Source: Pelistega ratti (GTDB taxonomy: Bacteria; Pseudomonadota; Gammaproteobacteria; Burkholderiales; Burkholderiaceae_B). Taken from it: a stretch of 64,000 bases of DNA. This document shows, in pieces, positions 14,820 to 16,498 of this stretch. The notes under the pieces are model-generated. The model saw nothing but the letters and a program-made list of their open reading frames with translations. It searched no databases and was not told the origin of the DNA. The stretch spans positions 496,001 through 560,000 of the forward strand of contig NZ_CP047165.1 of the NCBI RefSeq assembly GCF_009833965.1, in the 5' to 3' direction. Numbering within the stretch: position 1 is the stretch's first letter; every line of letters starts with the position of its first letter. A program made the position numbers and the translations under genes.

Positions 14820-15194
14820 TTAAGCTGCCTTACGTGCAGGTAATTTTTCTTTAATACGAGCAGCCTTACCAGAACGGTTGCGTAAGTAGTATAACTTAGC
14901 ACGACGCACAGCACCACGGCGTTTTACTTCGATAGAAGCAATTTGTGGAGAATATAATTGGAAAGTACGCTCTACGGCTTCACCAGAAGAAATCTTACGA
15001 ACGATAAACGCTGAGTTTAAACCACGATTACGTTTTGCGATAACAACGCCTTCATAAGCTTGCTGACGTTTACGGTTACCCTCAACAACGTTAACATTAA
15101 CAACAACTGTATCACCAGGTGCAAACTCAACAACTGCTTTACCGCCTGTTAAGCGCGCAATCTCTTCTTGCTCTAAAGTTTGAATTAAGTTCAT
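14820..15194 (-). CDS. rplS: 50S ribosomal protein L19
   Basis: The protein (124 residues from the ATG at 15194) shows the L19 hallmarks: [51 protein letters not shown], and the basic [14 protein letters not shown] near the end. An in-frame upstream start at 15221 is rejected because a good ribosome binding site (AAGGA) sits six bases before 15194. In many relatives rplS follows rpsP-rimM-trmD, but here it stands alone with its own promoter and terminator. Confidence 0.97.
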
Positions 15195-15310
15195 GTTTTT
15201 CCTTAAAACCATCATACGCAACCCTAAATTGATATAAAAGACAAAAGTCCTTAATAACTACACCTACCATTAAGCGTAGTAGTTGCCAGAGGATGAAAAC
15301 TAAGTCTCAA

Positions 15311-15339
15311 ATTATAAAAAAAATAGATAAAAACATCAA
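15311..15339 (-). promoter_or_regulatory. Sigma-70-type promoter of rplS
   Basis: Read on the minus strand, TTGATG (15334-15339) and a perfect TATAAT (15311-15316) are separated by 17 bp, about 115 bp upstream of the rplS start. Because this promoter lies downstream of the hairpins at 15475-15570 with respect to rplS, those hairpins are not part of the rplS leader. Confidence 0.65.
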
Positions 15340-15449
15340 GACTTGATTAAAAACAATGATAAATACAAAAAAATTTATCAAAAAACAAGCTATCAAAGAG
15401 GTAAAAAAACCACAAGAGATAAAAAGAAAGTAAAAAAGCTTGCAAAAAA

Positions 15450-15469
15450 TACTGTATAAATGTACAGTA
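15450..15469 (+). promoter_or_regulatory. LexA (SOS) operator
   Basis: The site is TACTGT-N8-ACAGTA, a perfect palindrome in its outer 6 bp. It contains the CTGT-N8-ACAG core and matches the E. coli consensus at 18 of 20 positions. A TATAAA at 15468-15473 could be a -10 element, so LexA bound here would block transcription toward the gene at 15681. Betaproteobacterial LexA is known to use the E. coli-type operator. Confidence 0.8.
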
Positions 15470-15474
15470 TAAAT

Positions 15475-15680
15475 GTCGTTGGCATAGTAACGACAATCAG
15501 GTGTAGGGTCCTGATTTCCATCTACCTGTTACTTATATGATAGCAGGTAGATGGGCCTCTCTGTAGAGAGATAAAGATAATGATTTTAATACTGTATGTT
15601 AGATAATCACTACCGCTATATATTATATAGGATGTTGTTTAGGGAAAGGAATATCTAACATTTTAATAAGGGTAATTAGA
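15475..15680 (+). ncRNA. Highly structured 5' leader of an SOS-box gene
   Basis: Four perfect consecutive hairpins begin directly after the LexA box: 15475-15494 (6 bp), 15495-15516 (7 bp), 15518-15554 (11 bp, extendable to about 14) and 15557-15570 (5 bp, 4-nt loop). Downstream, TGTTAGATA at about 15598 pairs perfectly with TATCTAACA at about 15650. It encloses a small palindrome and a GGGAAAGGAA sequence shortly before the ribosome binding site of the gene at 15681. No long T run follows any hairpin, so these are not ordinary terminators. Structured leaders that delay translation are known for SOS-induced membrane toxins such as TisB; this case is inference. It could also be a separate small RNA. 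Confidence 0.6.
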
Positions 15681-16028
15681 ATGACAAACACATACTATCA
15701 TCATACTAACATTATGCCTACTTTTACAGGCACTCATTATAATTGGTCTATATCAGCAGCACCCCAACAAAAATCAGCTAAAACAACGCAGCCCAAAACC
15801 ATATTTACACATACACTACCACAGAATACCTTACCTCAGCCCTCTTACCGTCCTGTACAAGACTGGGTAAATATGCCTATGATACGCACGAGAGGGTTAC
15901 GCAGTGATTTACGCTATATCAAAGCTTATATCGGTAGAGCATTATCCTCATTCTGGGGTGATTTACTCATGGTACTTATCTGGGCAGCTATGATTCCATC
16001 ATTAAGTATGCTATCACTTTGGGTATAA
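15681..16028 (+). CDS. Small tail-anchored membrane protein under apparent SOS control
   Basis: Not recognised. The 115-residue protein has a polar, Thr/Gln/Pro-rich N-terminal half with no signal peptide. A basic amphipathic stretch follows (about 70-90, containing RTRGLRSDLRYIKAY), then a single hydrophobic segment at about 94-114 that ends the protein (LSLWV). This layout suggests a cytoplasmic N-terminus anchored in the inner membrane by its tail. A ribosome binding site (TAAGGG) is correctly spaced. The LexA box and structured leader upstream suggest expression only after DNA damage. Roles consistent with that are a division inhibitor (compare the small membrane inhibitors of Caulobacter) or a TisB-like membrane toxin; neither is shown by sequence homology. 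Confidence 0.7.
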   Translation: MTNTYYHHTNIMPTFTGTHYNWSISAAPQQKSAKTTQPKTIFTHTLPQNTLPQPSYRPVQDWVNMPMIRTRGLRSDLRYIKAYIGRALSSFWGDLLMVLIWAAMIPSLSMLSLWV

Positions 16029-16087
16029 AGTCATCTTTTATAGACATTATGAGGCATTGTCTTAATCACTAGGTATATACAAAAACA

Positions 16088-16498
16088 TTACGATAATGTA
16101 TGCATATATTCAAAAATAGCTTGCTGTAAGTCCTTCTGAACAGAAAATAAATCCTTTTGCTGTAGTAATGCCTCATAATGTCGAGCATCAAACTCATAAA
16201 TACCACTTGCTTTAAAACAAAAAGCAATTGACCATGGTTTCACCGAGGGTATTAGCTTAATAATCTGCCCTTTCTTATTACAAAACACTACTAAAATAGG
16301 CATACGCATAAACATTGTATGTACTATCTTACACCGTGGAAAATACATTCCCTTATCCTTTGGTAAAGATGGCATACCTATTAATCCACGCAAGCGTTGC
16401 CAAAAACTATCTGCCATTATTATTGTCATGCGATTAAATTTATATAAAACGATTAGAAGTTGTTCCCAAAGTGGGTCTGTTAATGCTATTCTCGTCAT
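16088..16498 (-). CDS. DUF192 family protein
   Basis: A 136-residue protein of the DUF192 family (function unknown, a small beta-rich fold often found near Tad pilus genes). Family features are WQRLRGLIGMPSL, the GMYFPRCKIVHTMFM segment and the VPF-like PILVVFCNKKGQIIKLIPSVKPW. Most relatives carry a signal peptide, but none is apparent here and no strong ribosome binding site precedes the ATG at 16498. It lies downstream of the Tad operon but beyond two terminators, so it is probably transcribed on its own. Confidence 0.7.
   Translation of the reverse strand: MTRIALTDPLWEQLLIVLYKFNRMTIIMADSFWQRLRGLIGMPSLPKDKGMYFPRCKIVHTMFMRMPILVVFCNKKGQIIKLIPSVKPWSIAFCFKASGIYEFDARHYEALLQQKDLFSVQKDLQQAIFEYMHTLS

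Follow-up and report, generated by a model that had tools for sequence, protein, structure and literature searches.

Introduction

Outside the bacteria that use SulA, small single-pass membrane proteins that inhibit late steps of division are described as the more widespread SOS inhibitors, with SidA, YneA, ChiZ and SosA as examples (PMC13396833, PMC6851548, PMC4211646). SidA of Caulobacter crescentus, a protein of 29 amino acids (PMC4211646), binds FtsW. YneA is reported to act on FtsW through its transmembrane segment (PMC13396833). Published accounts place the transmembrane segment of YneA and SosA near the N-terminus, together with an extracellular part, and state that the known small SOS inhibitors share little homology, SosA and DivS lacking a LysM domain (PMC13396833, PMC6851548). 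Because the known members share so little, homology and a LysM domain, neither of which we found in the members tested, define YneA and ChiZ only.

Here we describe a locus of Pelistega, a genus placed in the Alcaligenaceae, from a genome of 2.33 Mb; the window, by which we mean the whole stretch of DNA analyzed, is 64 kb long. The product would resemble SidA as an SOS-induced, tiny, single inner-membrane protein unlike SulA, and the shortest relatives (about 44 amino acids by predicted start) are nearly all helix, as is the 29-residue SidA. It differs from SidA in that no sequence relation was found, and in that the family combines a variable cytoplasmic part with a C-terminal helix bearing a fixed D-W-P-G-F/Y pattern. 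With YneA, ChiZ, SosA and DivS it shares the predicted character of an SOS-controlled single-pass membrane protein, but the family has no LysM or other extracytoplasmic domain, and its transmembrane segment lies at the opposite end of the protein from that of YneA and SosA. A further likeness is to TisB/IstR-1 of E. coli, likewise a LexA-controlled small membrane protein with a structured leader, although in the family the leader was seen in three genera only.

Results

The operator and the small gene

The LexA operator TACTGTATAAATGTACAGTA (15450-15469, + strand) overlaps the spacer and the -10 element of a promoter read by eye (15440-15468, +), composed of TTGCAA (15440-15445), a 17-nt spacer and TACAGT (15463-15468), and from this overlap transcription would be expected to start near 15470. 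The arrangement TTGCAA-N17-TACAGT also occurs at L002, L003, L004 and L045, and was not among the entries of a consensus promoter scan of the window. With two mismatches to the consensus TACTGTATATATATACAGTA, TACTGTATAAATGTACAGTA agrees at 18 of 20 bases, as the first-pass annotation had stated, and it is the sole site with three or fewer mismatches in a consensus scan of the 64-kb window; none of 100 dinucleotide shuffles of the window gave a comparable site. The recA and lexA genes of the Pelistega genome, which we named from their sequence, carry CTGT-N8-ACAG boxes like that at 15450-15469, and while exact CTGT-N8-ACAG sites number 11 in this genome, the form CTGTA-N6-TACAG is present only at recA, lexA and the small gene. 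The operator is real, and goes beyond what chance would provide.

Downstream of it, a probable Shine-Dalgarno sequence read from the DNA (AAGGGT, 15668-15673, +) lies 7 nt 5' of the ATG at 15681, where an open reading frame for 115 amino acids begins (15681-16028, +); its homologues, the selection on its tail and a predicted helix all point to an SOS-controlled, tail-anchored membrane protein. A conserved neighbor on the opposite strand (14820-15221, -) is, judging from its translation, presumably rplS, which encodes ribosomal protein L19, and the rplS motif was present in 94 of 108 family loci.

Neither the 115-residue protein nor the members of its family that were tested matched Pfam, NCBIfam, PHROGs or PADLOC over cut-off, weak lines to encapsulin 4B (0.051) and PEPxxWA-CTERM (0.24) falling far below it. 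The AlphaFold2 model shows hardly any structure ahead of residue 58 and a single long helix spanning residues 73-114 (mean pLDDT 62.7, about 80 over the helix), and a Foldseek search of the PDB with this low-confidence model as query returned no match. On the strength of the model the protein is predicted to be a small single-pass inner-membrane protein. An unannotated membrane protein with one C-terminal segment, unlike TisB or the small division inhibitors, had been proposed from the DNA alone, and this description holds. The domain and structure searches made revealed no kinship in sequence or fold with any known division inhibitor.

A family with a conserved C-terminal tail

A single-sequence query matched 4 of 61 genomes, the window's own included, and all four Pelistega matches have the box (with 2-4 mismatches), the promoter, the leader hairpins P2 and P3 described below, and the rplS neighbor. 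G002, a further genome of the genus and the fifth with the gene, encodes a 205-residue form with a box of one mismatch at the same place, and two of the seven genus genomes gave no match to the diverse profile A8. A protein search returned 13 proteins, counting that of the window, none of them functionally named. With a threshold of E up to 1, profile A5, to which the longer form and a sequence from another genus had been added, had matches in 110 of the taxonomic family's 268 genomes, chiefly over the C-terminal helix alone. Profile A8 gave matches in 213 of the 268 genomes and in 36 of 43 genera, leaving 55 genomes without a match. The gene is mostly single-copy, with two family matches each in G268, G067 and G288. 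An order-wide sample of 399 genomes yielded 25 matches at E up to 0.1, nine of them within the taxonomic family; among the 16 outside it, 10 were inspected and rejected as members, since their loci held no LexA core box, and six of these 10 were one and the same 35-residue shadow frame. No convincing member outside the taxonomic family was therefore found among the 10 of 16 outside matches inspected. Taken together, the searches suggest that the gene belongs to an unnamed, previously undescribed protein family that matches no annotated one.

Two sets of loci were used for counting. The first comprises the 108 loci kept, with G268 counted twice; L091 (G100) was dropped as a false positive in a transporter frame, and profile A8 does match in G100, while L077 (G086), with an uncertain tail and LexA-like boxes, was left out, as were G015 and three weak second matches. 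The second set comprises 64 loci from 62 genomes, new among the profile A8 matches listed.

The C-terminal tail of the family follows the motif D-x6-W-x4-P-x5-G-x4-F/Y. On the rows kept in the first set, W (position 0) and P (+5) were each present in 108 of 108, D (-7) in 103 and G (+11) in 106, and W stands exactly 17 residues before the C-terminus in 99; in the second set the W-x4-P tail was found in 63 of 64 loci. The last 20 residues are free of charge in 106 of the 108 first-set loci, and the net charge just N-terminal of this uncharged stretch is never negative (mean +2.4). The 108 stretches coding for the tail are all distinct, and 90% of single-base codon differences between them are synonymous against 25% expected, a share taken from 454 close pairs that are not independent; these values indicate that the tail is under strong purifying selection. 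Member sizes by predicted start run from about 44 to 205 residues, the shortest amounting to hardly more than the helix. A cytoplasmic part of variable length, joined to a fixed, uncharged terminal helix with a positive flank, suggests that the helix acts in the membrane.

The window copy carries the motif residues D94, W101 and P106. Its tip (15990-16028) departs from the family norm, with S112 where 106 of 108 loci have G and an end reading LSLWV rather than AGY or AGF.

LexA control across the family

In the first set, a search of each open frame together with the 350 bp 5' of it found a LexA box in 68 of 108 loci, against 0 of 108 for equal lengths downstream; the 68 include L131, whose box belongs to a radical SAM gene, so that 67 of 108 have a box of their own. 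Two or more boxes were present in 38 first-set loci, with 23 pairs spaced exactly 18 bp apart. Of the 40 loci with no direct box, 3 were cut by contig ends and 37 were traced further upstream, and in 36 of these 37 a box lies just before a radical SAM gene (37 of 38 when L131 is included); G116 showed no clear box even further upstream. In the second set 42 of 64 loci were of the direct type and 18 of the operon type, 2 were cut by contig ends and 2 had no box (G148 and G248), and the downstream controls gave 0 of 64. Over both sets LexA control was found in 164 of 172 loci (110 direct, 54 behind the radical SAM gene) and in 0 of 172 downstream controls, counts that are uncorrected for relatedness; the other eight comprise five untestable loci and three lacking a clear box (G116, G148 and G248). 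The first-pass annotation had named loss of conservation of operator and protein in relatives as a ground for rejecting its proposal, and the two are instead kept together in these 164 loci. The position, match and conservation of the operator place the gene, in all probability, in the LexA (SOS) regulon, with induction and LexA binding as predictions.

In the 37 operon-type loci, the small gene begins 11-153 nt past the stop codon of the radical SAM gene (median 62), and because of this spacing the two would form an operon. In 37 of 37 loci the radical SAM box lies wholly 5' of the next in-frame start codon (5-6 nt away in the 12 loci listed), and that start precedes the motif; 7 of the 37 boxes have one core mismatch. 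The one radical SAM protein tested falls in the PA0069 family (NF033668; 453 bits against a cut-off of 360), the others having been assigned by motif. The enzyme shares with the small gene a LexA-boxed gene pair, yet it is of another family, and in the Pelistega loci read no PA0069-type gene lies beside the small gene.

At 37 of the 38 loci traced upstream (L162-L199), a LexA box closely precedes the start of the PA0069-type radical SAM gene, and the PA0069-type family in Alcaligenaceae appears from these positions to be an SOS gene. A separate LexA-like site, TACTGTTTTTCTATACAGTG, was noted at L019 (G000:C1, about 650993; box at 1499), approximately 100 bp 5' of a 99-residue open frame followed by a second one; we take the first to be RelE/HigB-like and the second antitoxin-like, which would make them a possible SOS-linked type II toxin-antitoxin pair. 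Four copies of CTGTCTTAAATAACAG at L012-L015 (G000:C1:74333-76880) were rejected as operators, being repeats inside a very long repetitive open frame.

The structured leader

The window leader from 15472 to 15700 folds with -67.5 kcal/mol (z -4.96). Its hairpins, all on the + strand, are P1 (15474-15495; TGTCGTT paired with AACGACA, loop containing GCATAG), P2 (15496-15515; stem ATCAGG/CCTGAT, loop TGTAGGGT), P3 (15518-15554; a long perfect stem, CCATCTACCTG/CAGGTAGATGG) and P4 (15557-15570; CTCTC/GAGAG). Four hairpins directly behind the operator had been described before, and all four do fold; P1 to P3 recur in relatives, whereas P4, seen in the window fold only, is absent from the folds of L002-L004. 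The earlier proposal of a long-range pairing (about 15596-15605 with 15651-15661, near the ribosome-binding site) did not survive comparison: this part of the leader cannot be aligned among the four Pelistega species, and L053 leaves only about 40 nt between the end of P3 and the start codon, so that neither the pairing nor P4 is conserved.

Three genera supply 20 direct leaders (five from g1, Pelistega, five from g23 and ten from g64; first set), and every one has UAGGGU in the P2 loop, against 0 of the remaining 47 direct leaders of that set. Both sides of the P2 stem change between groups (C-G/T-A, T-A/C-G, A-T/G-C) with 110 of 120 cells paired, although, with cross-group pairing already at 81%, the covariation comes down to few changed pairs. 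On inspection of folds, with no statistic attached, the P1 stem has an altered sequence and retained pairing in L003, L045, g64 and some g23 leaders. Counted from the initial T of TAGGGT, the P3 stem, of 9-15 bp, starts 13-17 nt further on in each of the 20 leaders, and its sequences are unrelated across groups, each arm still pairing with its own partner; as the arms were picked as best stems, the 180 of 180 paired cells arise by construction, and the informative features are the fixed position and a cross-group pairing of 39%. In six g64 leaders the 9-bp P3 taken by itself is unremarkable (65-92 of 200 shuffles). A covariance model built from four Pelistega leaders matched, beyond those four, only G181 (E 7e-4; 250 genomes) and missed G002, though the element is visible there on inspection; an Rfam scan of 15200-16100 at E up to 1 gave no match.

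Of the 20 leaders that bear the RNA element, 2 have at least two LexA boxes, versus 36 of the 47 direct leaders that lack it, in a comparison uncorrected for kinship. Two or more boxes in 36 of 47 element-free leaders argue for tight repression, as expected of a harmful product, and we read the structured leader and the paired boxes as what may be alternative ways of locking one gene. The combination of LexA site, long structured leader and small membrane protein, which the first-pass annotation likened to the logic of TisB-type toxins and small division inhibitors, is not the usual plan of the family: the leader was seen in three genera only, most of the remaining direct members have two boxes, and many members follow a LexA-boxed radical SAM gene.

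A scan of the 64-kb window for the complement of the P2 loop, allowing up to two mismatches, gave no further site, and within the transcript a complement of the loop, matching TAGGGTC, was present in L003 alone of six transcripts. In Pelistega the rplS leader contains UUAGGGU, as does the P2 loop, although that of the window reads UGUAGGGU; the idea of a link between the two was dropped when TAGGGT was found in 0 of 66 rplS leaders recovered by start pattern from the 108 loci, a pattern that missed those of Pelistega, which we read directly. Ahead of the rplS start codon, CATCCTCTG ... GATGAT(G) is common to many leaders of the family (in the window, 15210-15310, - strand), with no Rfam match in the window, and this shared sequence is possibly an L19 autoregulatory leader.

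Discussion

We consider it about an even bet (probability near 0.5) that the family is an SOS-induced division inhibitor that works like SidA or YneA and is unrelated to them in sequence. As we envisage it, DNA damage would lead RecA to trigger cleavage of LexA, and the protein, otherwise repressed by LexA, would be made and would insert in the membrane through its C-terminal helix. It would then span the inner membrane once, with a cytoplasmic N-terminus and a C-terminus that lies at the membrane or just outside it, and would halt growth, most likely by binding of the W-P-G face of the helix to the late division machinery (FtsW, FtsI or FtsN). In Pelistega and two further genera the leader P1-P2-P3, with its invariant UAGGGU loop, would add a post-transcriptional brake, and most other direct members have two LexA boxes in its place.

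The protein would thereby serve as the SOS division inhibitor of the Alcaligenaceae, a family that seems to lack a recognizable SulA. The SulA domain PF03846 exceeded its cut-off in 1 of 268 family genomes, in a frame that we take from its sequence to be ImuA-like, beside what is presumably lexA; two weaker matches were rejected, as they contain stops and overlap other open frames. SulA was found in none of the seven genus genomes, the 115-residue protein did not match PF03846, and we regard no candidate SulA in the 268 genomes as convincing. Among the literature matches listed, no SulA substitute for the Alcaligenaceae was found, nor, judged by title and abstract opening in a search confined to non-subscription literature, any paper on the gene or on an SOS division inhibitor of the Alcaligenaceae. 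Several findings speak against a division inhibitor: the transmembrane segment is C-terminal with nothing beyond it, unlike that of YneA and SosA; co-transcription with the radical SAM gene could mean a role linked to repair; and 55 of the 268 genomes gave no match, two of the seven from the genus among them, a clear LexA box is lacking at three loci, and the window copy is atypical at its tip.

The helix of TisB is charged, that of the family is uncharged over its last 20 residues in 106 of 108 loci, and because of this missing charge a TisB-like depolarizer is less likely than a division inhibitor. If the protein acted as a TisB-like type I toxin, its helix would depolarize the inner membrane and bring on dormancy in damaged cells, the leader would block translation of the primary mRNA, and an antisense RNA would pair with the UAGGGU loop, a scheme favored by LexA control, the structured leader and a loop invariant in 20 of 20 leaders. 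The same layers of control restrict tisB (PMC8145889), but here the leader is not general, having been seen in three genera only, and no antisense site to the loop was found at two or fewer mismatches in the 64-kb window. The predicted proteins, at about 44-205 residues, are moreover mostly larger than TisB and often exceed the "typically under 60" given for type I toxins (PMC11264685), and we consider this scheme unlikely. Somewhat less probable still is an accessory role in repair, in which the protein would tether to the membrane, or otherwise partner, the PA0069-family radical SAM protein, itself distantly like spore photoproduct lyase. The small gene does lie downstream of a radical SAM gene whose box it shares in 37 first-set and 18 second-set loci, but 67 of the 108 first-set loci and 42 of the 64 in the second set have a LexA box of the small gene's own, and within the short flanks no more than 30 of 108 loci show the PA0069 motif on the same strand. 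A reading in which the leader does the work, as a regulatory RNA induced in the SOS response, and the small protein is a passenger is very improbable, for although P2 and P3 are better conserved than the protein N-terminus among Pelistega species and a T-rich sequence follows P3 in L002, no T-run lies past P3 in the window, L004 or L053, and the protein is under strong purifying selection and present far beyond the leader-bearing genera.

Returning to the division inhibitor, we offer a broader version more tentatively: a minimal tail-anchored helix may be the general SOS checkpoint effector that stops division in the Alcaligenaceae, and in three genera a new regulatory element of the mRNA, P1-P2-P3 with its invariant UAGGGU loop, read by some sRNA or protein, may replace the second LexA operator as the lock. 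The LexA-boxed gene, matched in 213 of 268 genomes, is a testable candidate for the factor that stops division in the Alcaligenaceae during DNA repair, and, if this is true, the replacement of paired operators by a structured leader in particular lineages would show the same safety lock rebuilt at the level of the transcript.
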